The notes under the pieces: generated by a model
Told to the model about the DNA's origin: nothing
What the model saw: the letters and a program-made list of their open reading frames with translations, nothing else
Database searches by the model: none
Assembly (NCBI GenBank): GCA_011365025.1
Contig: RDOF01000014.1
Location: 3,138-67,137, forward strand
Length of the DNA: 64,000 nt
Origin: Candidatus Thorarchaeota archaeon
GTDB taxonomy: Archaea > Asgardarchaeota > Thorarchaeia > Thorarchaeales > Thorarchaeaceae
Direction: 5' to 3'
Made by a program: the position numbers and the translations under genes
Shown: positions 24,600 to 37,519 of the stretch, in pieces
How the letters are laid out: each line of letters opens with the position of its first letter
Position numbering within the stretch: the first letter of the stretch is position 1

Positions 24600-25853
24600 T
24601 TAAGCACGTCTTTTCATTGTAAGAATAATAGCCACTACAAGAACGACAGCAACTGATCCTCCGGCAATGGATAGGATTTGTGCTGTATTTAGCATGGGTT
24701 GGTTGGCCGTCGTTGTTGCTGTAGTGGTCGTGCTAGTTCCGGTAGTTGTTGTGGTTGTGCTGCTTGTCGCAGTGGTGGTGGGTATCTCTACATCTGTAGC
24801 CGCTCTTGGATGGGGGTCTTGATTTCCCGCTGAGCCGACTATCGAATATGGAACATCAACATAACCATCTGCGTCGTCATCAGGACTTGTCCAATCATCG
24901 AAGTAGTTGTAGATGAATTCATTATCGGCTCCGTTGTCACAAGCCTGACACGATTCGCCGCTATTGACAAAGACGTTGCCCTTTACTGTGAGATTGCTGC
25001 AACCAGTGTTTAGTTCCACTGCATGTGAAATCGAGTCTACAACCCAATTCTCCGTGCAAACAATGTACGAACTTGCACCTACAAGGATGCCATTCGTCCC
25101 ACTACCCCCGATGCTATTTTGTGAAACCACTGAGTCTTTCATGCCGTACAGATACATTCCGCGCGTACCGCTTCCGGTGATTGTATTTCCTGAAATCACT
25201 GAGTCCGTCAATCCGGCAACTTCGATTCCATTCGTGCCTGATGCGGAGATCACATTTTCAGTGATAAGAAAGTGGTCACTAAAGGGGATGAGCATTCCTG
25301 ACATCGCATTGTTTGAAATCGTATTGTCTTCAATGATCAAGTTCGTGGAGCCCGAAAGAATCTCAATTCCATTCTCAGTATTTCCGGCAACCACATTGTC
25401 GCGGATAATTAGATCGCTGCATTCTTGGATTACCATTCCACTGTGTCTTCCCTGGATTGTATTGTTCTCCACCAGTCCGTTAGCGGCATTGTAGAACCAG
25501 GTGCCACATACTGCGCCGGGTTCTATGAAATTGTTCCTAAACTCCCAGTGTAAATCAACGTCCCAGATTCTGATTGGCTGAATATCACTCCCAGTTAGTA
25601 TATAGCCAGTAATCACATAGGGATGGTCTTCTGAGCCATCTCCCTCCCAGCTCTCAGATAGTGCTAGGCTCTGCATGTCTTCATTGCTATAAATCTCAAT
25701 AGAATACCTTGTAACGTAAGTATCACTGATGACCGCCTGGTCTCTGCTATTCACATGCGCAATTGAGGGATTCGGATTTCCTGCACATGCCAATGTCATG
25801 GCTCCAAAAGATACCACTGCAAGTAAGCACAGGCAATAAACTACCTTTCTCAT
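24600..25853 (-). CDS. Secreted right-handed beta-helix (NosD/CASH-like) surface protein with Thr-rich stalk
   Basis: A 417-residue cell-surface protein. A signal peptide (RKVVYCLCLLAVVSFG) is followed by about 300 residues of parallel beta-helix repeats of the type LIIRDNVVAGNTENGIEI, a near-C-terminal Thr-rich stalk, a single hydrophobic anchor (GGSVAVVLVVAIILT) and a basic end (KRRA). This is the layout of a membrane-anchored archaeal surface glycoprotein. The NosD/CASH fold binds or processes carbohydrates in some proteins. ATG 25853 is preferred over an upstream ATG because GGAGATTAG lies in front of it. It is the first of three similar genes and the only one with the Thr-rich stalk. Confidence 0.82.
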   Translation of the reverse strand: MRKVVYCLCLLAVVSFGAMTLACAGNPNPSIAHVNSRDQAVISDTYVTRYSIEIYSNEDMQSLALSESWEGDGSEDHPYVITGYILTGSDIQPIRIWDVDLHWEFRNNFIEPGAVCGTWFYNAANGLVENNTIQGRHSGMVIQECSDLIIRDNVVAGNTENGIEILSGSTNLIIEDNTISNNAMSGMLIPFSDHFLITENVISASGTNGIEVAGLTDSVISGNTITGSGTRGMYLYGMKDSVVSQNSIGGSGTNGILVGASSYIVCTENWVVDSISHAVELNTGCSNLTVKGNVFVNSGESCQACDNGADNEFIYNYFDDWTSPDDDADGYVDVPYSIVGSAGNQDPHPRAATDVEIPTTTATSSTTTTTTGTSTTTTATTTANQPMLNTAQILSIAGGSVAVVLVVAIILTMKRRA

Positions 25854-25988
25854 TTCTCTAATCTCCAACTCCACAGATTGCATGGAGGGTTACTATGTTC
25901 ATAGTCCCGCGCCACAACTACTGCAAACCTAATATTAAGGTCCGTTTCAACGCACAGAGAATTGCTTGCTGGCAATGGTTTGATTCTT

Positions 25989-27206
25989 TCAGTCCAGCTT
26001 CTTGAACGTGAGAATTGCCACTAGAACAACCATGGTGGCAATTACAGAGGCATAGGCAACTACATCTGTGCCCACTTTCCCAAGGACCACAATAAAAACC
26101 CGAACAAGCACCGAGTCGACGGTTTGAAGTCCGCCAGCATCAAGGAGTACAATCGTGTAATTGTACGTTCCAAATCCATGTGTTCGTACTACTACTCCTA
26201 TCTCTTCAATCAGCCAAGTAGTCCCTTCAATTCTGATGCCATTAAGAAGAACACTGTATTCAAGCATGTACTCGTCTGACGCCGTCCAATTGATAATTGG
26301 AGGAATCTCGCCCTCTACAAGATCCAGATCGAAGGGCGTATTCACAAATGGCGCAGATCTATCTTCTAGGGCACGTGGAAAATTATCCGAAGCATTTCCC
26401 AAGCCATCAATCTGATAGATGCCCGTTCCATTATAACCAGTCCAGAAATTCCCGATTGATTCATTATTGTCCCAGAAATTATGTCCAAAGTCTGCTGCAT
26501 GATAGAATGGCTCAGTCTGCCCATCCGGTCCATTCCATCCTATGTGATTGCCAAAGATTGTATTGTTGTATGTCCCATGGGACATTAGAATCCCACTATC
26601 CCTACTTCGGTATATGCTGTTTCCATTGACTGTCCCATTCACCGTCGTTTGGAATCTGATTCCTCTGCTTGTTCTGAAGACCTTGTTATTCGTGATGACT
26701 GGTCGGTAAGATGAAAACACTGCTATGCCCATGCTTTCAGCATCAGCAATCCTGCAGTTCGCAATCCTGCAATCAGAGGTAGATGATAGAAAAGCTCCGT
26801 ATCTTCCTCCAGTTATTATGCAATTCTCGATACTGCCATTTGCAGTGTCTACCAGCTGCAATCCGTCACTAATGCTCTCTGTAACAACTATCAGACAATT
26901 TCTGACTACATAGTGCAACGTTGTTCCTAAGACAATAATGCAATGCAAGGCGCGAGTAGTTATGTTCAAGCCCTCGATGACAAAAGGGCTCTCGGAGGTT
27001 CCATCTCCAGGCCAACCCTGCTCCCTGAACTGGCTATCACCAATGATCCTAACGACATTGTGCTGTGTGTATTGAGGGATTACCTTTGTGACACTATCTA
27101 ATGGTTTGGAGTCTACAAATCTTGGTCCTAGCGTTTCTACTGGCATCACAAGTGCGGTGCTGAGAAAAAGAACAACTACTGCAACTGCGAACCTATCCGA
27201 TGTCAA
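25989..27206 (-). CDS. Secreted beta-helix (NosD-like) surface protein
   Basis: A 405-residue paralogue of the neighbouring genes. A signal peptide (VVVLFLSTALVMPV) leads into IPQYTQHNVVRIIGDSQF and NosD repeats such as GIRFQTTVNGTVNGNSIY. Near the C-terminus an Ig/PKD-like segment (INWTASDEYMLEYSVLL to VRTHGFGTYNYTIV) precedes a membrane anchor (ASVIATMVVLVAILTF). The TTG start has only a weak ribosome-binding site. No catalytic motif is apparent. Confidence 0.8.
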   Translation of the reverse strand: MTSDRFAVAVVVLFLSTALVMPVETLGPRFVDSKPLDSVTKVIPQYTQHNVVRIIGDSQFREQGWPGDGTSESPFVIEGLNITTRALHCIIVLGTTLHYVVRNCLIVVTESISDGLQLVDTANGSIENCIITGGRYGAFLSSTSDCRIANCRIADAESMGIAVFSSYRPVITNNKVFRTSRGIRFQTTVNGTVNGNSIYRSRDSGILMSHGTYNNTIFGNHIGWNGPDGQTEPFYHAADFGHNFWDNNESIGNFWTGYNGTGIYQIDGLGNASDNFPRALEDRSAPFVNTPFDLDLVEGEIPPIINWTASDEYMLEYSVLLNGIRIEGTTWLIEEIGVVVRTHGFGTYNYTIVLLDAGGLQTVDSVLVRVFIVVLGKVGTDVVAYASVIATMVVLVAILTFKKLD

Positions 27207-27285
27207 CAGACTCTAGACGCCTCCTCGAGGTTGGCCGCCCTTAATGCAATCTGGTCACTTATAGCTTGAGAACAACGCATAGCAG

Positions 27286-28503
27286 CTAGTACACAGAGGC
27301 TCTTCTTTGACGAATCTTGAATAAAAGAATCAGTCCTAGCACCAATGCGATGCTACTTGCAGATCCTATTACGAGTTCTGTAGTGCCAATATTGCTGAAA
27401 ACTATGATGAAAACAAAGACTACAACACTATCCAGTGATTCACGCCCATCAAGATCAATGAGTTTAATGTTGAATCTGTGTTCTCCGGGGGGAAGACCAT
27501 CCACTGAAAAGGAAATAGTTCGACTTATCCATGTTCCTTCCTCCTTTACTTCTGCGCCTTTAGTAATAACATACGACCATGGATATTCGTCTGTGGCATT
27601 CCATTGAATCTCATATCCGGTAGACCCTTCGACGTAGAACAAGTCCTCTGCCGGTTCTACATCAGGGTCCTGACCGTCCAGAAGCTGTCTTGGCGAATCA
27701 TCTCTGGACTCCGATGCGCCGGAAATCTCGTACGGTCCCGGAGGAACGTAGTCCGACCAGTAATTGCCAGTCCAAATATTGCGAGTTCCAATATCCTCCG
27801 CGTTGGTTTCAACGACAAGAACCCGATTCCTTCCAACCATGTTCTGGGTCACGATGTTGCCCGTTGCATTCAGTCCCAATCGGATTCCCAATAGAGAATT
27901 TCGGTACACCTTGTTGGAAGTCAGGTTGCACATCTCACTCTGTAGAAGAAAGATGCCAACCTCATTGTTCAGAATTCGGCAACCAGAGCAGTTGAGCATA
28001 GCGGAAGAACCACAGTGAATGCCAGTTGTGGCCTCGAAAAGCACACACCCCTCAATTGTAATGAAAAACGAGTTCATAACCTGAATACCCACGTTTCCGC
28101 CCTGGAAGATGCAGTTTTGAATTGTCGTGTGATTTGAGTTGTCAATCGCCGCACATGTGAGATAATTAACGGTGCATTTGAAGAAGCAATTTCGAATAAT
28201 AACATAACTGGCAATGTCTTGAAGATGCAGACATAATTCTGCAGTGACATTCAACCCTTCGATGACAAACGGATCTTCAGGAGAACCTGAGCCATCAAAA
28301 CCTAGGGTGGTGAAATCACTCGGATGCAGAATTATTATCGGTGGGTGGTGGATGTAGTCTTCAGAACCCTGCAAAAGTGAAGCTAAGACTGGTGCAGTTT
28401 CATAACAGTTTGCAACTGTAGTGCCCGATGCAACAACACAGTGAGCGACGAGAAAGACAACTAGTGTTAGTGCTAGAGGTTGTCTCTCAATCCTTCTTTT
28501 CAT
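27286..28503 (-). CDS. Secreted beta-helix (NosD-like) surface protein
   Basis: A 405-residue paralogue of the two preceding genes. The chosen start, ATG 28503, gives a classic signal peptide (KRRIERQPLALTLVVFLVA) and has GGGTG 6 bases upstream; a GTG at 28542 overlapping the previous stop codon is also possible. NosD-type repeats with many Asn (CHIISNNS-like strands) fill the centre, followed by an Ig-like segment (IQWNATDEYPWSYVI) and a C-terminal membrane anchor. It sits downstream of two unknown genes and may be translationally coupled to them. Confidence 0.8.
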   Translation of the reverse strand: MKRRIERQPLALTLVVFLVAHCVVASGTTVANCYETAPVLASLLQGSEDYIHHPPIIILHPSDFTTLGFDGSGSPEDPFVIEGLNVTAELCLHLQDIASYVIIRNCFFKCTVNYLTCAAIDNSNHTTIQNCIFQGGNVGIQVMNSFFITIEGCVLFEATTGIHCGSSAMLNCSGCRILNNEVGIFLLQSEMCNLTSNKVYRNSLLGIRLGLNATGNIVTQNMVGRNRVLVVETNAEDIGTRNIWTGNYWSDYVPPGPYEISGASESRDDSPRQLLDGQDPDVEPAEDLFYVEGSTGYEIQWNATDEYPWSYVITKGAEVKEEGTWISRTISFSVDGLPPGEHRFNIKLIDLDGRESLDSVVVFVFIIVFSNIGTTELVIGSASSIALVLGLILLFKIRQRRASVY

Positions 28504-28541
28504 CAATAGCACCCGCAGAAACGCCCTACTCACAAGATGCA

Positions 28542-29204
28542 CTATTGCTGCCCGCCTCTTGAATTTTCCGACGTTGATTTGTCACCAAATCGTGTTCTTC
28601 CAACAGAATCGACGAGTTCGCAATGCATTTGATTGAGTTCCAGAAATGCCTCCCTATATTCATCCTCTCTAATTGCCAGATATACTCTGTCCTTGCTCCT
28701 CTCTGTGTCCAGAATTTTTATGGCTCTCTCGAGAGACCTTGGATAGAATCCATATAGCACCATGAAGAGAAGAATCAGCGATGTCATTATCAAGCCGAGG
28801 AGGGGGAACTCAAAGGGTCTCTCCTGAAGCATAGCATTTCTTAGAGATAGAAAGAAGTAGAGTATTGGATAAAACATCAGGAAATATGCGGCAAAGGCAA
28901 TGAATCTCTTCCTTTCGGTTCTTACGCTTCCGCTTCCGTGTCTGACACAGGACGGAATCCAAAAGACCGTTGCTCCTCTAGCAGCTTCGAGCGCTGCCGC
29001 CACCTTATCTCCTCCCTTCCCCCACGATGAATGTATGTCGGAACCGTCTTTGTCTGGTCCCTTTTCAATTACGGTGACTGCTACGAGATCTTCTGCGTCC
29101 TTCAGGCAGACCGGACAGATTTCGGGAAATTGAACATTGGCAATGCTGCACCGAATGACCGAGTCCTCACTTCTATGTGTCCGTTCTGAGTTTCTTTCAG
29201 TCAT
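28542..29204 (-). CDS. Unknown membrane protein with N-terminal CxxC segment
   Basis: A protein of 220 residues with an N-terminal FPEICPVCLKDAEDL segment (a zinc-ribbon-like CxxC half), two hydrophobic segments (AAYFLMFYPILYFFLSL and IMTSLILLFMVLYGF) and a charged C-terminus ending in a Gln/Gly-rich tail. I recognise no family. ATG 29204 has AGAGGA upstream; an in-frame TTG at 29237 overlaps the preceding stop by four bases and would add 11 residues. Its end overlaps the possible GTG start of the beta-helix gene, so it belongs to that unit. Confidence 0.68.
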   Translation of the reverse strand: MTERNSERTHRSEDSVIRCSIANVQFPEICPVCLKDAEDLVAVTVIEKGPDKDGSDIHSSWGKGGDKVAAALEAARGATVFWIPSCVRHGSGSVRTERKRFIAFAAYFLMFYPILYFFLSLRNAMLQERPFEFPLLGLIMTSLILLFMVLYGFYPRSLERAIKILDTERSKDRVYLAIREDEYREAFLELNQMHCELVDSVGRTRFGDKSTSENSRGGQQ

Positions 29205-29233
29205 ATTGTCAGGACTTCCTCTTGCCCATTTTA

Positions 29234-29635
29234 TCAAGACTCTGGGGGCATCACAATGATCTGCACGCTAGTCATTAATCCCTCCTCTTTTGGATCCACG
29301 GCATCAAAAGTGTCGAAAGTCATTTGATAGAGAAACCGTTGCTCCCTCTTCTTCAATTCGTGAGCAATCCGAACCGAAAGGCCAATGCCCTTGAATCCAT
29401 ATCCTCTGATTGCTACCATCCTTGAATCGCTCTTTACAAGGTCTCGAATTGTTCCTGCAATCTGAGGGATGTTAATCTTGCCAACCTTATGGGATATCTC
29501 GAGTAGAATGTAGTCGCCAGTAGGGAATACGGATACATCATCCTCCATTGTGATGGATACAACCTCATCTCTTAGCTTCAGTTGGTCTGGGATTCTATCA
29601 CGGAGTGCCATAATACTTTCTTGAGCTAGTCCCAC
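29234..29635 (-). CDS. Small protein with Alba-like fold pattern, unknown function
   Basis: A 133-residue protein. The central and C-terminal part (AIRGYGFKGIGLSVRIAHEL then LMTSVQIIVMPP) has the strand-helix-strand rhythm of the Alba superfamily of DNA- or RNA-binding proteins, though the usual Alba N-terminus is not obvious. A GTG at 29635 gives the full frame; an ATG at 29611 is an alternative start. It overlaps the next gene by four bases. It is not certain to be an Alba homologue; no other family was recognised. Confidence 0.6.
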   Translation of the reverse strand: MGLAQESIMALRDRIPDQLKLRDEVVSITMEDDVSVFPTGDYILLEISHKVGKINIPQIAGTIRDLVKSDSRMVAIRGYGFKGIGLSVRIAHELKKREQRFLYQMTFDTFDAVDPKEEGLMTSVQIIVMPPES

Positions 29636-30786: not shown

Positions 30787-31629
30787 ATGACATCAGAACC
30801 TGCTCTTGATGCAGAAGAGCCAAAGCAAGAAACGGAAGTCCCTCCGAAGAGAAAGCTTGGTTCAATGACCCTTCGTGACTTCCTATTCAAGGCATTTCTT
30901 CCAGCTTTGGTTCTCATCCTGCTTTGGCAGGTAATTTCCATTCCCTCCAGAGTGACTCTCATTGATATTGCCGAAGGCTTCGTGAAACTGGTAGTAGAGG
31001 GTGACAGCGACAATCGTATTCTTCTATTCCATTCCGCCTTGAGTATTATGAGGGTACTTCTTGGATTTCTCGCTGCTGCTATGACTGGAATCCCCTTGGG
31101 CATTGCGATTGGCCGATACAAAGCCGTGGATTCCATTCTTGGACCTGTTGTTGACGCTATGCGGCCCATTCCTCCCATTGCCTGGATTCCCCTTGCCCTC
31201 ATTGTCTTTACAGGAAATCTTCTTGGTGCGCAAATCTTCGTAATCTGGGTGGGAGCTTTCTTTCCGATTCTAATCGATACAACAACCGGCGTGAAACGAA
31301 CAGAGCCAGTGCATATTGATGTTGCAAAGACTTTCGGAGCATCAGAATCAGAGATCTTGGCAAAGGTCGTTGTTCCTTCTGCAGCTCCCGAGATGTTCTC
31401 TGGTTTACGCATTGGCTTCGGAATAGGCTGGATGTGTCTTATGGCTGCAGAGATGATTGGTGGGGGCCTTGGTCTTGGCTATCTGATATGGGACGGCTGG
31501 CAAATAGGGAGAACTGCGGAGGTCATTGCAACGATGCTTGTTGTGGGCGTAATTGGTTTCATCTTTAGCTACGGCTTCCTTAGAGTGGAACGACGCCTTC
31601 TCAAGTGGCGACAGGCGGTTTCAGTCTAG
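30787..31629 (+). CDS. NitT/TauT/SsuC-type ABC transporter permease
   Basis: A 280-residue permease with five to six membrane segments and the EAA loop in DVAKTFGASESEILAKVVVPSAAPEMFSG, characteristic of the TauC/SsuC type of BPD permeases. It is 80 bases downstream of the substrate-binding gene on the same strand. Its 3' end overlaps that of the convergent ATPase gene by 29 bases. Confidence 0.9.
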   Translation: MTSEPALDAEEPKQETEVPPKRKLGSMTLRDFLFKAFLPALVLILLWQVISIPSRVTLIDIAEGFVKLVVEGDSDNRILLFHSALSIMRVLLGFLAAAMTGIPLGIAIGRYKAVDSILGPVVDAMRPIPPIAWIPLALIVFTGNLLGAQIFVIWVGAFFPILIDTTTGVKRTEPVHIDVAKTFGASESEILAKVVVPSAAPEMFSGLRIGFGIGWMCLMAAEMIGGGLGLGYLIWDGWQIGRTAEVIATMLVVGVIGFIFSYGFLRVERRLLKWRQAVSV

Positions 31630-32410
31630 CCTGGTCTTTCATAGCCTTCTCCTGCTCTACCTTGAGAAGATCAAGAATCCGAGCGCGGTATGACAGGCAA
31701 TCCGGTGAGGTTCTGACTCGGGGTTTAGGAAGGGCAACCTCAAACTCAGCAATTATCTTCCCCGGGAGATTGCTCATCACCAGTATTCTGTCTGACATGA
31801 ACACGGCCTCATCCACGTTATGAGACACGAAAAGGACCGTTGATCCCGTTTCCTTGCTTATTCGCATGAACTCCTCCTGAAGATAGTTCCTTGTCTGGGC
31901 ATCTAGGTTCGAAAATGCCTCATCCGCTATCAGGATATCCGGTTTTGTCACAAGACTGCGTGCCATCTCTGTCTTTCTAGCCTGACCGCCAGAGATTTCA
32001 TGAGGTAGATTGTCCTCAAGCCCCCGCATTCCCACAATTGCAATCATTTCGTTTATGAGCCGACTTCTTTCAGGCTCTTCAATATCTGAAATCTCAAGCC
32101 CAAAAGCAACATTTTGCCTGACGGTGCGCCAGGGGAAGAGTGACTCTTGCTGAAAGATATATCCGGCTCTGTTATGGCCCGGCTTTACCTGCACATCATC
32201 TATTGAGACATACCCACTATCCGGTTCAAGAAGACCTGCTATGATTTTGAGTAGTGTTGTTTTGCCGCATCCTGATGGGCCAACAATGCTCAGAAACTCG
32301 CCATTTTCAACGTTGAAAGATATGTCTTCGAGTACTACTGTTTCTCCGTTGTCCTCGTTTGGATACGCTTTGCATATTCCCTGAACGGATAGCCTCGGCA
32401 AGCCAGACAC
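31601..32410 (-). CDS. NitT/TauT/SsuB-type ABC transporter ATPase
   Basis: A 269-residue ABC ATPase with Walker A (GPSGCGKTT), the signature loop (EISGGQARKTEMARSL), Walker B (ILIADEAFSNLD) and the switch His (SHNVDEAV). It powers the adjacent permease and binding protein, so the three form one importer, but this gene is on the opposite strand and tail-to-tail with the permease. A GTG start is used; the TATA-like GTATTTAACC at 32434-32443 would place the start of transcription almost at the start codon. Confidence 0.92.
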   Translation of the reverse strand: MSGLPRLSVQGICKAYPNEDNGETVVLEDISFNVENGEFLSIVGPSGCGKTTLLKIIAGLLEPDSGYVSIDDVQVKPGHNRAGYIFQQESLFPWRTVRQNVAFGLEISDIEEPERSRLINEMIAIVGMRGLEDNLPHEISGGQARKTEMARSLVTKPDILIADEAFSNLDAQTRNYLQEEFMRISKETGSTVLFVSHNVDEAVFMSDRILVMSNLPGKIIAEFEVALPKPRVRTSPDCLSYRARILDLLKVEQEKAMKDQARLKPPVAT

Positions 32411-32433
32411 CTATCCATATGTGAAAGAAAGCC

Positions 32434-32443
32434 GGTTAAATAC
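32434..32443 (-). promoter_or_regulatory. TATA-like box for the ABC ATPase gene
   Basis: On the minus strand GTATTTAACC is centred about 27 bases before the GTG start, implying a leaderless or nearly leaderless message. Confidence 0.4.
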
Positions 32444-32541
32444 TGTCCCTTTTGGCTTTCGTCCCAAATTGCGCAAAAGGACTAAAACCCAGCAAGGTTC
32501 AAAAAGGCGGCTTACGCAGTTGTTGACGTCAGGGTAGATAC

Positions 32542-32550
32542 TATTTATCT
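32542..32550 (+). promoter_or_regulatory. TATA-like box for the propeller-GTPase gene
   Basis: CTATTTATC lies about 43-51 bases before the ATG of the propeller-GTPase gene, leaving a leader of about 20 bases. Confidence 0.4.
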
Positions 32551-32592
32551 TACAAATGGGCTCTAATCCTGCTAGCCTATGGATGGTAGTTG

Positions 32593-34917
32593 ATGGTGAC
32601 CTCCCCAAGGATTCTCTTTGAAGTCGAAGACGATAGGAGCACAAGCGCTATTGCAGTGGGTAACATCACTGGGGCCGGCAGTTCGCAAATCTGTACGGGC
32701 GACCGAGATGGTGTTTTGAAGCTCTATGAAGTACTAAACGGTGAAACCAAGTTTCTTGCACAGAAGGATCTTGAAGGGAGTATCCTCTCAGTAAGGGTCG
32801 CAGATGCAAACAACGATGGTTTCATGGAGATTGTGGTTGGAAGAAGCTTAGGTCCGCATGATATTGAAGGAGAGGCAGGTACAGTCCAAATCTACAGATA
32901 CGCCCCCAGTGGCCAGCTGGAGCTTCTTGCAGAGAAGGCCGTCGGGAGTTTTGTGACGACTGTATACGTGACCGACGTCACAGGGGACAACAAGAATGAG
33001 ATATTGGTGGGGGCAAGTGATTCCACACTCCGGATTTACAAAATGGACACTGAGAACAATCTCACGGAGTATGTCAAGCACAAACTGGAAGACATGCCCA
33101 TTGCAATTGGAACTTGTGATGTAATTGGCGATGAGATTGATGAGATTGTCACAGGCAACTTGGATAAGACCCTTCGTGTCTTCAAGGTTCGCGACCATTC
33201 CATCGAGCAAATCGAGGTCCTTGACCTACCCAGTCCCGTCATCTCCGTCACTGCTGGTGACGTGCTTGGCGACCGAAAGATGGAGCTTGGGGTTGTCACT
33301 CGGGACGGTTCTGTTCGGGTCTACCGCAATGAAGAGAGTAAGCTCGACCTATTCACAAAACTGGACAATGTGAAAGCACTATCTGTGCGAATTGAGGAGA
33401 TCAATGCTGACCATATGGATGAGCTCATCATTGCCACATCAGACTACAAGGTCCTGGTCTATAATCTCCAGATGGCCGAACTCCAAATGATTGCTTCTAT
33501 GGACTTGGGTGTCAAGATACTATCAATCAGCATAGGCGATGCCAATGGTGATGACCGGAAAGAGATACTAGTGGGAATCTCTGATGGCCCGCTCAAGGCA
33601 TTCGAGGGAATGTATCAGATAATCCCCAAGTTTGAGGTGAGTGCAGAGGTCAAGACCAGCGCTGACCTTACGGGAAAACTCACGCTAGCTAATGTTTCTG
33701 ACCAGCCTGTCAATGGAATCACCGGGAAGATCTACTGGTTCCCAAAGGACTACCTAGATGTAACGCCCCAGCAAGTACGCTTTGACCTTGCTCCCGGCGA
33801 AACAAAATGTGCAGAGATACAGCTTGCTCCAAAGAGCGAAGGCTCTGTCATCATAAGGCCAATAGTTCTCATGTGGACAGATGCTGCAGGACAAGTCAAA
33901 CAGGTGACAACCCCTGAGACCGCCATTCTCGTGGAAGAGGGTGCAGTGGTCGCTGCTCCTGCCGCTGAGCCTGCTGTCATGCTTCAGCCCACGACAGAGT
34001 TTACTCCCCACGAAACAATTGTCGAGGACGAATCGCCATTTTCTCCTGTTAGTGGTACGGGCTTTGGAGAAGTCTCCAAGGAGAGGGCGGCGGAGATTCT
34101 ACGCACGACCACCCCTGATGATTCGTCGGAGTCTCTCAAGGCCGCTGAGGAATTGCTTGACCAGCTCTTCGGAATGGAAGAAGAAGGAACACAGGACCTC
34201 TCTGTTTTTGATGATGTGTCTGCGATGATTGAGGAAGAGGCCCCTGTTGTCACACCCCCGCTCGCTGTAGACGAGACCATGACAGAGAGCCTGTTAGTAA
34301 CGGAGATTAGAAACAGGACGCCGAAGCCGCCTCGACCCGGTACGCCTAGCGATACCTATACCTATCTGTTCAAGGTGATGGTCACTGGTGAGGGTGCCGT
34401 TGGTAAGACAACTCTCGTCAATCGCTACGTGACGGGCATCTTCGAGAGAGACTACAAGACCACGATCGGAAGTCAGTTCGCCGTCAAGCTCGCCCACATC
34501 TCACCGCCTGAGACCGACTACTCTGTTGGCATCAAACTGCAAGCCTGGGACGTAGCTGGGCAGGCACGATTCAAGGCGGTGCGGAAGATGTACTATAGCG
34601 GTGCAGCAGGCGTCATTCTTGTCTTTGACGTGACGCGCCGGAGGTCCTTTACGGAGTTGTCAAAGTGGGTTGCAGAGGCTGATGAGTCGGTGGGTTCAAG
34701 AGTTCCAATGATAGTAGTTGGTAACAAGATCGACCTCCCCGATAGGGCGGTACCGTCGGACGAGGCAAAGCGATGGTCCGAGGACCAGGGCTTTCTCTAC
34801 ATGGAGAGCAGTGCAAAGACCGGAGATGGTGTAGCCGATATGTTCTCGGTGCTCTCAGAGATGATGTGGAAGGAAGCCAGAAGAGCCACCGAAGCAAAGA
34901 AGATGAAAGGCAACTAG
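32593..34917 (+). CDS. Seven-bladed FG-GAP/BBS-like beta-propeller fused via a beta-sandwich and linker to a Ras/Rab-like GTPase
   Basis: A 774-residue chain. Seven repeats of a D-x-[NT]-G-D-x-x-x-E-[IL] type motif (for example TDVTGDNKNEILVG, GDANGDDRKEILVG) fill about residues 1-350, the number expected for a seven-bladed propeller. A sandwich-like segment (GKLTLANVSDQPVNG to GSVIIRPIVLMW) spans about 350-455. An acidic, Pro-rich linker runs to about 590. The GTPase has all five motifs: GEGAVGKTTL (about 599), TTIG, DVAGQ (about 653), NKID (about 711) and SSAK. It ends KKMKGN without a lipidation site. Asgard archaea are known to encode many small GTPases; the fused arrangement suggests a scaffold or coat-like function, which is inference. 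ATG 32593 was chosen over an adjacent TTG. Confidence 0.88.
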   Translation: MVTSPRILFEVEDDRSTSAIAVGNITGAGSSQICTGDRDGVLKLYEVLNGETKFLAQKDLEGSILSVRVADANNDGFMEIVVGRSLGPHDIEGEAGTVQIYRYAPSGQLELLAEKAVGSFVTTVYVTDVTGDNKNEILVGASDSTLRIYKMDTENNLTEYVKHKLEDMPIAIGTCDVIGDEIDEIVTGNLDKTLRVFKVRDHSIEQIEVLDLPSPVISVTAGDVLGDRKMELGVVTRDGSVRVYRNEESKLDLFTKLDNVKALSVRIEEINADHMDELIIATSDYKVLVYNLQMAELQMIASMDLGVKILSISIGDANGDDRKEILVGISDGPLKAFEGMYQIIPKFEVSAEVKTSADLTGKLTLANVSDQPVNGITGKIYWFPKDYLDVTPQQVRFDLAPGETKCAEIQLAPKSEGSVIIRPIVLMWTDAAGQVKQVTTPETAILVEEGAVVAAPAAEPAVMLQPTTEFTPHETIVEDESPFSPVSGTGFGEVSKERAAEILRTTTPDDSSESLKAAEELLDQLFGMEEEGTQDLSVFDDVSAMIEEEAPVVTPPLAVDETMTESLLVTEIRNRTPKPPRPGTPSDTYTYLFKVMVTGEGAVGKTTLVNRYVTGIFERDYKTTIGSQFAVKLAHISPPETDYSVGIKLQAWDVAGQARFKAVRKMYYSGAAGVILVFDVTRRRSFTELSKWVAEADESVGSRVPMIVVGNKIDLPDRAVPSDEAKRWSEDQGFLYMESSAKTGDGVADMFSVLSEMMWKEARRATEAKKMKGN

Positions 34918-35519
34918 GCGTTTGCTATCCTCGCAAAGTCATTCTTGCCCCCCTCAAAAGAAACTTGATTGATATCCCACTCTCTCAGAGTTGTCTTCAG
35001 TGCCTCAATGATAGAGTTCTCAGATAATGGTGTTAGTGCACTTGCTACCAGTGCCCCAATCATGTAGACGTTGAGAGAGCGCTTTGTCCCCGCTTTCAGG
35101 AACGCCTCGGAAGGGTCCAGAAGGTATGCCGTCCCGCAAATGGCACGCAGTGATCTCCCAATTGTCGTGACCTCTGGATATACGGCCCTCCCCGCAATTG
35201 ATTCCGGGGTTTCGACTTTCGCAGTGCTAGCAATCGCCGTGGTACGGGGCGTCGCCAAGTCGACCGCTGCTCTGAGCGACTCCAAGGGTTCCAATCCTAG
35301 GAGAAGGTCCAGCTGTCCTTGGGGAATAAGGGGCCCAAGGTCCTCTGAGCCCAAGCGAAGATGTGTCAACACGGTTCCTCCACGCCTAGAGGCTCCGAAG
35401 GTCTCTCCAATTGTGGGGGTGAGTCCCTGTCGAAGTGCTGCTGTGGCCAAAACACGACCACAGACCAAATTCCCCTGCCCTCCAACACCTGCAATCAGGA
35501 TATTGTATTGCTCCTTCAC
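34914..35519 (-). CDS. iorB: Indolepyruvate:ferredoxin oxidoreductase, beta subunit
   Basis: A 201-residue PorG-like subunit: NILIAGVGGQGNLVCGRVLA near the start, then TIGETFGASRRGGTVLTHLRLG and a conserved GLEPLESLRA. Partner of IorA; the pair converts aryl pyruvates (from aromatic amino acids) to aryl-acetyl-CoA with reduction of ferredoxin. Its start overlaps the IorA stop by four bases. Its own stop shares four bases with the end of the propeller-GTPase gene on the other strand. Confidence 0.92.
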   Translation of the reverse strand: MKEQYNILIAGVGGQGNLVCGRVLATAALRQGLTPTIGETFGASRRGGTVLTHLRLGSEDLGPLIPQGQLDLLLGLEPLESLRAAVDLATPRTTAIASTAKVETPESIAGRAVYPEVTTIGRSLRAICGTAYLLDPSEAFLKAGTKRSLNVYMIGALVASALTPLSENSIIEALKTTLREWDINQVSFEGGKNDFARIANA

Positions 35520-37399
35520 GAGTCCTCCCTCCTTATGGCATCATGTGGACAGACCGGGATACACGCGCCACAGCGGACGCACAGGTCCTCATTGACCTCT
35601 GCCTTGTTGTTCTCCTCATTCCACCCCAGCGCCAAGCAAGCGAACTGACTGGTACAAATTCTGCAGCTCTCACCCTTGCAGGATTCGATATCAACAAGGA
35701 CCCTTGAGAGCCCCTCATAGGTCTCTCCTAATCCCTGTTCCTCTAATCTGCAGACGCTCTTGATAAGGAGGACCTTTAGACCACTCATCTTGACGGCATT
35801 ATGGATTGCGTTTATCATAGCCTCAATGTCTGCAGCATCTAGAATCTCAAAATACGCAGGTTCTACTGCCTTTACGATTTTTTCAATACTGACCGGAGAA
35901 TTGCCGGGCGATTGTATGAACGAGCCTGGATGGGATTGAAATCCTGTCATGGCGGTCGTTGAGTTGTCAAGAATTAGGAAGGTGACATTAGCATTCTTGT
36001 GCTTGGCATTTACCAATCCCGGTAGACAGGCATGGAAGAAGGTCGAATCTCCCGCTACAGTCACCACCTTCTGCTTCAAACCGAATCTCTCAAGTTGGCC
36101 CAGTCCATTCGCTGTGCCAATTCCTGAACCCATTGCCTGCATTGTATTCATAGATTCATTGTAGAACACACCCAGTGAGTAGCAACCAATATCCCCGGTG
36201 ACGATCAGTCCTTCTTTGATTCGTCTTCTCACTCTGCCAAGCGCCCAGTATACATTCCGATGAGTACACCCTGCACAGAAGGTCAACGGTCGGGGAATCA
36301 ACATCTCCTTTGCCGACATGATTGTGCTTCTTACTTGCTCATCCTGATCCTTCATCGGGATGCCCAAGACGGATCTGAGGGCTTCCATGACAATATTCGT
36401 ATCGAGTTCACCAAAAGATGGGACAGTGCCATTCCTTTTCCCGGAAAACGTAGGTTTCTTGCTCCACTGCAATTCACCCACCATGGCCAGGACGGCATCC
36501 TCAATGAAGGGGTCTACTTCCTCAATAAAGAGGACCTTCTGCCTTTCCCTAATCCACTCTGCAAGGGTTTCTCGGGGAATAGGATGCGTCGTGACGAGAT
36601 TAGCCACTTGCACAGAGGAGGCACCAAGAAGATCTACAGCTTCCTTTGCATAACGAAAAGCAATACCACTTGCTAGAATGAGTGTGTCTGCTCCAGTGTC
36701 GTTTGATAATCCATTCAACCCGGTTAGCTCAAAGCTCTTCGCGATGTCAGCTAGTTTCTCCACAAGGTTTCTGTGTCTTAGATGGGGATTAGGAACGTTA
36801 TAGGGGGCTTCAGCAAAGTTCTCAGACAGGTGACGGCCGATCGAATCCACTTCTCCAAGCTGAATTACTGAACGAGAGTGACTGAGCCGTGTCGTGCTTC
36901 TAACAATAACGGGTATCTGATATTTCCGTGAAAGCGCAAGCGCCATTGGAATTGCGTCCTTGGCTTGCTGACAAGTTGCTGGCTCCAAAAGAGGAAGATA
37001 TGCCGCTTTCGCAAAAAATCTTGAATCCTGCTCGTTACTGGAACTATGCCCCCTGGGATCATCACAGACGACAATCACAACGCCCCCCGGCCCTATCCCT
37101 GAGAGATTCACATTGAGAAGGAAATCAGCGGCTACGTTCAGACCCAATGATTTCATTGGACAGATTGAAGGAAGTCCAGCCCAGCTTGCCCCGACACAGG
37201 CCTCAAGTGCAACCTTCTCATTCACGCTCCACTCCACATAGATGTCCTGCTCCTCTGAAGCCTTCATCAAGGTGGAAGCAATCTCTGTTGAGGGAGTTCC
37301 AGGATAGGATGCGCAAAAGCAAATGCCCGCTTCAAGTGCACCACGTGCAATGGCTTCATTGCCGCTCATCAAGACCTTGTTTCTGGAGCTAGATTCCAT
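35516..37399 (-). CDS. iorA: Indolepyruvate:ferredoxin oxidoreductase, alpha subunit
   Basis: A 627-residue fused subunit with an N-terminal PorA-like domain (LMSGNEAIARGALEAG, YPGTPSTEI), the ThDP domain (TGDIGCYSLG and GDSTFFHACLPGLVNA), and a C-terminal ferredoxin-like region with VRCGACIPVCPHDAIR and an upstream Cys group (CKGESCRICTSQFAC). ATG 37399 has GGAAGG six bases upstream, whereas longer ORF starts lack support. Together with IorB it oxidises aromatic 2-oxoacids. Confidence 0.92.
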   Translation of the reverse strand: MESSSRNKVLMSGNEAIARGALEAGICFCASYPGTPSTEIASTLMKASEEQDIYVEWSVNEKVALEACVGASWAGLPSICPMKSLGLNVAADFLLNVNLSGIGPGGVVIVVCDDPRGHSSSNEQDSRFFAKAAYLPLLEPATCQQAKDAIPMALALSRKYQIPVIVRSTTRLSHSRSVIQLGEVDSIGRHLSENFAEAPYNVPNPHLRHRNLVEKLADIAKSFELTGLNGLSNDTGADTLILASGIAFRYAKEAVDLLGASSVQVANLVTTHPIPRETLAEWIRERQKVLFIEEVDPFIEDAVLAMVGELQWSKKPTFSGKRNGTVPSFGELDTNIVMEALRSVLGIPMKDQDEQVRSTIMSAKEMLIPRPLTFCAGCTHRNVYWALGRVRRRIKEGLIVTGDIGCYSLGVFYNESMNTMQAMGSGIGTANGLGQLERFGLKQKVVTVAGDSTFFHACLPGLVNAKHKNANVTFLILDNSTTAMTGFQSHPGSFIQSPGNSPVSIEKIVKAVEPAYFEILDAADIEAMINAIHNAVKMSGLKVLLIKSVCRLEEQGLGETYEGLSRVLVDIESCKGESCRICTSQFACLALGWNEENNKAEVNEDLCVRCGACIPVCPHDAIRREDS

Positions 37400-37519
37400 C
37401 TTCATCCTTCCAACTCTCAGGCTGCATTGTATCAGAAAACACTTCCGCCACGTCTTCGCATTGTGATGTACCAAAGAAAAAAAGAAAAGGGGCGCATAAG
37501 GTCAGAATACGAGTAAACA

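Follow-up and report, generated by a model that had tools for sequence, protein, structure and literature searches.

A class-wide Thorarchaeia protein joining a predicted seven-bladed propeller, an ear-like sandwich and a Rab-like GTPase

Eukaryotes use propeller and ear-like domains in their membrane-traffic adaptors, and eukaryotic coats, as well as complexes of the BBSome and KICSTOR type, are recruited by small GTPases or act on them. In the Thor archaea, which are close relatives of eukaryotes, similar parts occur within one protein. Its gene lies in a 64,000-nucleotide stretch of contig RDOF01000014.1 from a Candidatus Thorarchaeota archaeon (the window), and joins a propeller, a beta-sandwich, an acidic linker and a Rab-like GTPase in one chain, hereafter the fusion protein.

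The BBSome subunits BBS1, BBS2, BBS7 and BBS9 combine, like the fusion protein, a seven-bladed propeller with an immunoglobulin (Ig)- or GAE-like sandwich. Their architecture is given as propeller-helix-GAE and the complex as recruited by the small GTPase ARL6/BBS3 (PMC7018513). In the AlphaFold2 model of the fusion protein, however, a strand at residues 333-337 is followed by one at 343-349, with no helix where BBSome subunits have their dimerisation helix (hx), and the platform and coiled-coil of BBS2, BBS7 and BBS9 (absent in BBS1) are missing, the sandwich leading into a low-confidence linker and the GTPase. Also, the BBSome GTPase is Arf-like and separate, whereas the fusion protein carries a Rab-like one within its own chain. 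For the propeller, the KICSTOR protein ITFG2 is both the best sequence-profile match and the joint-best fold match.

Among solved GTPases, the closest is Thor-Rab (PDB 7ezb; KXH73347.1; E 5.2e-44), described as an Asgard Rab-like switch without a C-terminal prenylated extension (PMC10933270). Unlike the fusion protein, Thor-Rab was crystallised as a single small GTPase, and its switch-I Arg37 aligns with T623 of the fusion protein; Thor Rabs without this arginine may need GTPase-activating proteins (GAPs), as inferred in the same paper. According to that paper, the MK-D1 genome also encodes GTPases joined to roadblock or longin domains, and further ones with domains whose function is unknown (PMC10933270). 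The nearest archaeal precedent found is the haloarchaeal adaptin-like proteins of the Halo_adaptin ESCRT system, with a WD40/PQQ-like propeller and adaptin-appendage-like Ig domains; judged by their description, they differ in having several Ig domains and an ESCRT gene neighbourhood, and no fused GTPase is mentioned in the accessible part of the source (PMC10936438). No description of a propeller-sandwich-GTPase architecture was found in the open-access literature, a search that left subscription papers mostly outside and does not establish priority.

Domain architecture of the fusion protein

The open reading frame (ORF) is confirmed as a real, conserved gene. It starts with ATG at 32593 and stops at 34915-34917, as an earlier reading made from the sequence alone (the sequence-only reading) had correctly placed it. 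Against a relative at locus L001 (89% identity), the nonsynonymous divergence (dN) is 0.06 and the synonymous divergence (dS) about 3, which is saturated, and third codon positions account for 401 of the 504 differences. The members are labelled 'GTP-binding protein' in public records.

32593..34917, + strand: whole gene (ORF), 774 residues, propeller, Ig-like sandwich, acidic linker and Rab-like GTPase
32611..33603, + strand: seven-bladed beta-propeller, residues 7-337, 28 strands (AlphaFold2 model, Pfam, fold matches)
33619..33960, + strand: Ig-like, ear/GAE-like beta-sandwich, residues 343-456 (AlphaFold2 model, fold matches, weak Pfam ASH)
33961..34353, + strand: acidic linker (residues 457-587), for the most part modelled with low confidence (AlphaFold2 model, composition)
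34354..34914, + strand: Rab-like small GTPase, residues 588-774 (Pfam Ras, E 2.5e-44; best PDB match Thor-Rab 7ezb, then Rab14)

The full-length AlphaFold2 model was built from an alignment of 43 sequences, the window protein and 42 chosen from 120 listed family proteins (mean predicted local distance difference test score (pLDDT) 74.6, predicted template modelling score (pTM) 0.56). In the model, the propeller consists of seven four-stranded blades (7 x 4 strands), in line with the seven blades previously proposed. The motif D-x-[NT]-G-D-x-x-x-E-[IL], earlier counted in seven copies, occurs exactly at only two sites (residues 128 and 316), so that the count was overstated. A looser form, widened after inspection of the sites, matches seven times at a spacing of 46-57 (residues 24, 71, 128, 176, 223, 269 and 316), where 5,000 shuffles averaged 0.10 matches and never gave more than 3; an intermediate pattern gives 5 matches against 0.015 in shuffles. 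Two parts of the propeller stand out in conservation.

32803..32829, + strand: blade-2 loop D-x-N-x-D-G-x-x-E, residues 71-79, possible calcium site (family conservation)
33256..33342, + strand: best-conserved propeller stretch, blade 5, residues 222-250, candidate interaction face (information content)

For family conservation we used 119 full-length proteins, the window's own included, among 120 listed of 164 found. D71, D75, G76 and E79 of the blade-2 loop are kept in all 119 and N73 in 117, and calcium binding by this loop is possible by analogy with BBS2 (PMC7018513). The blade-5 stretch holds the top-information 15-residue windows among window starts 1-585 in 32 sequences non-redundant at 85%.

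The sandwich foreseen behind the propeller was recovered at residues 343-456. Modelled alone, it reaches a mean pLDDT of 88.5 (AlphaFold2) and resembles the ears of COPI, BBS1 and AP2, BBSome GAE regions being among its matches; other Ig-type folds score alike. Pfam ASH, the signature of the ASH/MSP-type Rab-binding sandwich of OCRL, is weakly matched in 28 of 29 members (best E 3.9e-06; window copy 16 bits, cut-off 27), as are fn3_6 (18 members) and Transglut_C (13 members). Alpha_adaptinC2 was not among the sandwich's Pfam matches, which is no proof of its absence. The linker of about 130 residues is acidic and proline-rich, as also expected (28 D/E, 8 K/R and 14 P in residues 457-585). Its pLDDT is below 50 at 457-562, with helices predicted within, one of which is conserved: 8 of the 16 positions at 512-527 exceed 4.1 bits of information.

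34126..34170, + strand: conserved linker helix, residues 512-526 (AlphaFold2 helix inside the low-confidence stretch)

The GTPase carries all five G motifs, intact as previously noted.

34387..34410, + strand: G1/P-loop, GEGAVGKT
34462..34464, + strand: G2 threonine (T624)
34549..34563, + strand: G3, DVAGQ
34723..34734, + strand: G4, NKID
34807..34818, + strand: G5, SSAK

G1, the G2 threonine, G3 and the N, K and D of G4 are identical in all 119 full-length family proteins and the G5 lysine in 118; Gln657, among the residues checked, is invariant or nearly so. Because the model has a pLDDT below 50 at residues 602-629, although the sequence there is largely invariant, the identification rests on sequence, that is, on the matches to Pfam Ras, Thor-Rab and Rab14 listed above. 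The intact motifs and the best similarity to Rabs identify the domain, by sequence, as Rab-like and not Arf/ARL6-like: Ras scores 151.2 bits against 48.9 for Arf, and 58 of the best 60 of 963 PDB matches are named Rab, Ypt or Sec4, the other two just 'GTP-binding protein'. An Arf/ARL6 assignment was therefore rejected, and the parallel with ARL6/BBS3 drawn in the sequence-only reading is loose because the GTPase is Rab-like. The amphipathic helix that precedes the G domain at the N-terminus of Arf/ARL6-type proteins is absent, as the chain starts with the propeller and the G domain only from about residue 588. A C-terminal tail with a prenylated cysteine was likewise not seen, a cysteine occurring within the last 20 residues in one of the 119 full-length proteins and not in the window protein.

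Distribution and origin of the fusion

The same domain order, for which the sequence-only reading advised a search, does occur in other Asgard genomes: a full-length search found the fusion in 42 of 47 Thorarchaeia genomes, whole and in one frame in 35 and partial in 7. The absence from every related genome that would have refuted that reading is thus not the case. The partial copies are in G186, G188, G194, G198, G205 and G225, with parts on separate contigs in G188, G194 and G198, and in G220, where only the linker end and GTPase were found (73% identity). G191, G195, G204, G208 and G223 gave paralogue-level matches only; their completeness is unstated and absence is not established. A propeller-sandwich search of 227 genomes of the phylum gave a close match (E 3e-69 or better) in 41 and E 2.6e-22 or worse in all others, with no close match outside Thorarchaeia among these genomes. 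Five of the 120 matches listed of 172 are much shorter (455-620 residues), with the GTPase wholly or partly missing; P0122, P0124, P0125 and P0130 are labelled partial, whereas P0126 (455 residues) is not and is possibly an unfused or truncated form. The members' titles read Thorarchaeota, save L008 (G003, WJMJ01000128.1), titled Lokiarchaeota, which taxonomy places in the Thor class; the name may be outdated.

Of the 40 GTPase domains placed in a tree, 12 came from fusion proteins among the 120 listed and the other 28 from five genomes. The fused domains form one clade (support 100/100), whose sister is the free-standing Thor Rab-like GTPases L074/L075 (96/79, the bootstrap not fully settled). 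One fused clade beside a free-standing Thor Rab-like GTPase suggests a single fusion in the stem of Thorarchaeia. We regard the joining of a BBS/ITFG2-type propeller to the ear-like sandwich and the Rab-like GTPase as genuine and class-wide, and as having probably arisen once. The earlier suggestion of a coat or cargo-adaptor ancestor is not supported: the fusion, apparently single and confined to one class, is derived and therefore not itself the ancestor of a eukaryotic coat, while its separate parts could still be old.

Proposed role and alternatives

Our leading reading, held tentatively, is that the protein serves in the cytosol as a single-chain adaptor or scaffold and that the Rab-like switch would control its binding of partners in cis. 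A target protein would sit on the ear-like sandwich and on the propeller with its conserved blade-5 face; this target is probably the tail of a membrane protein, or else a factor in trafficking or the cytoskeleton. The GTPase, presumed to hydrolyse GTP and carried on a flexible acidic tether, would dock on the propeller-sandwich platform in one nucleotide state and leave it in the other, the state being set by guanine nucleotide exchange factors and GAPs acting in trans. As there is no prenylation cysteine, any membrane recruitment would go through partners. Since the switch, the seven-bladed propeller and the ear-like domain share one chain, their stoichiometry is fixed, and the protein could be tried in Escherichia coli. 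It would offer a single-gene test of how switches and adaptors came together, and of whether binding of the adaptor type depends on GTP state in an Asgard archaeon.

Rather unlikely, in our estimate, is a KICSTOR/ITFG2-like nutrient-signalling scaffold, in which the propeller would hold regulators of Rag-like GTPases or of its own GTPase and report metabolic state rather than move cargo. ITFG2 is the best PDB match of the propeller profile (E 7.5e-06), and the first 14 Foldseek rows with the propeller model are all BBSome or KICSTOR chains. However, the sequence match to ITFG2 is weak (Pfam Itfg2 38.1 bits, cut-off 27, lower than FG-GAP_3 and BBS7), with no single stretch passing alone; ITFG2 has, to our knowledge, no fused GTPase; the GTPase here is Rab-like; and the neighbouring genes, on various strands, do not indicate co-transcription.

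It is equally doubtful that common descent links the protein to the BBSome propeller-GAE subunits (BBS1/2/7/9), its chain having incorporated the switch. Pfam Beta-prop_BBS7 and BBS2_Mid are matched by all 29 members, the window protein scoring 69.7 bits for the former (cut-off 27), BBSome chains hold Foldseek places 1-7, and the sandwich also matches BBSome GAE regions. In two FG-GAP-rich Asgard proteins, by contrast, the BBS7 score is far below that of FG-GAP_3 (L058, 16.7 vs 169.6 bits; L059, 33 vs 144.8 bits). A best match to unrelated FG-GAP enzymes with no GAE-like sandwich, which would have refuted the sequence-only reading, was not the outcome. The BBS-like character that it claimed is supported, but not as specific to BBS proteins, because generic FG-GAP repeats and ITFG2 share the affinity. 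In another Pfam scan, the fusion protein matches FG-GAP_3 as well as BBS7 (75.0 vs 74.2 bits), and in the PDB profile search BBS7 (E 0.013) ranks after ITFG2, RACK1-type and other propellers. The Rab-like GTPase also counts against BBSome descent, and BBS family membership is not claimed because the defining propeller-GAE helix is missing in the model.

A lineage-specific signalling protein without a trafficking role, built of a generic FG-GAP propeller, a generic Ig domain and a Rab-like switch and serving, for example, polarity or transcriptional control, appears distinctly unlikely. Both the propeller and the Ig domain are generic, and other Asgard proteins with this propeller carry different parts, such as PCI/UFL1-like domains (L055) or a glycosyltransferase domain (L059). 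However, retention in 42 of 47 class genomes, together with very strong conservation of the propeller face, points to a role that is specific and basic, without showing which one. An assembly or gene-calling artefact is of negligible probability and was rejected, given the whole one-frame fusion in 35 of the 47 genomes, one copy of which is on a 2.6 Mb contig titled chromosome.

A class-wide archaeal protein bears on where GTPase-adaptor pairing began. It is conceivable, though unlikely, that a BBS1-like module of propeller and ear-like sandwich was pre-eukaryotic in Asgard archaea and worked with small GTPases, and that Thorarchaeia joined it to a Rab-like switch; a coat adaptor gated by a GTPase would then have a living analogue in a single chain.

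Related Asgard proteins and neighbouring genes

We compared 20 loci chosen as a sample of propeller matches, 19 outside Thorarchaeia and one a paralogue inside. The GTPase was absent from their ORFs by BLAST (E 1e-3), although a contig edge ends some loci (e.g. L064) and a cut-off domain could escape. Asgard propeller ORFs of 555-562 residues, without a GTPase found by BLAST, occur at L049, L050, L051, L052 and L067. These proteins share a related propeller with the fusion protein, the BBS7 match of L049 being stronger (90.1 bits, 2.2e-25), but differ in the missing GTPase and, in L049, in a C-terminal part that is winged-helix-like by eye. Another Asgard ORF, of 1,019 residues (L055:2365-5421, + strand, G084), combines a BBS7-type propeller (E 4.4e-15) with PCI (8.8e-14), DDRGK-like, UFL1-like and zinc-ribbon matches, and by its matches recalls parts of the eukaryotic UFMylation ligase. 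Two longer GTPase ORFs elsewhere, out of several (L071 and L072), are GTPase-linker-zinc-ribbon-like by eye.

Four class genomes searched gave 7, 10, 11 and 17 roadblock-family matches. In all four genomes examined, a Rab-like GTPase gene adjoins a weak roadblock match, one of them below the family cut-off; orthology of these GTPases was checked for L079/L080 only. At L080, a HEAT-repeat protein is next (HEAT_2 5.9e-09), its later part Ig/appendage-like by eye. The GTPase-roadblock pairs are as follows.

L080:904-3343
G001:C17:16850-17802
G189:C1:2511132-2512114
G185:C1:497890-498794

In all nine loci compared (L001-L009; window 30787-37474), transporter permease and ATPase genes precede the fusion and an oxidoreductase pair follows it, all on strands arranged as they are in the window; a substrate-binding gene is present in eight, the ninth contig being too short. 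The oxidoreductase pair is indolepyruvate-type by eye, with Pfam POR on the smaller gene, the only one scanned. The neighbourhood is a conserved gene order, not an operon; since the strand varies from one neighbour to the next and none hints at a function, an operon partner was rejected. Further upstream, three NosD/beta-helix proteins stand in a row (window 24600-28542, - strand). Two small proteins, at window 29237-29635 and 28545-29237 (both - strand), have no Pfam match at E 0.001 and recur in eight and seven of the nine loci, respectively.
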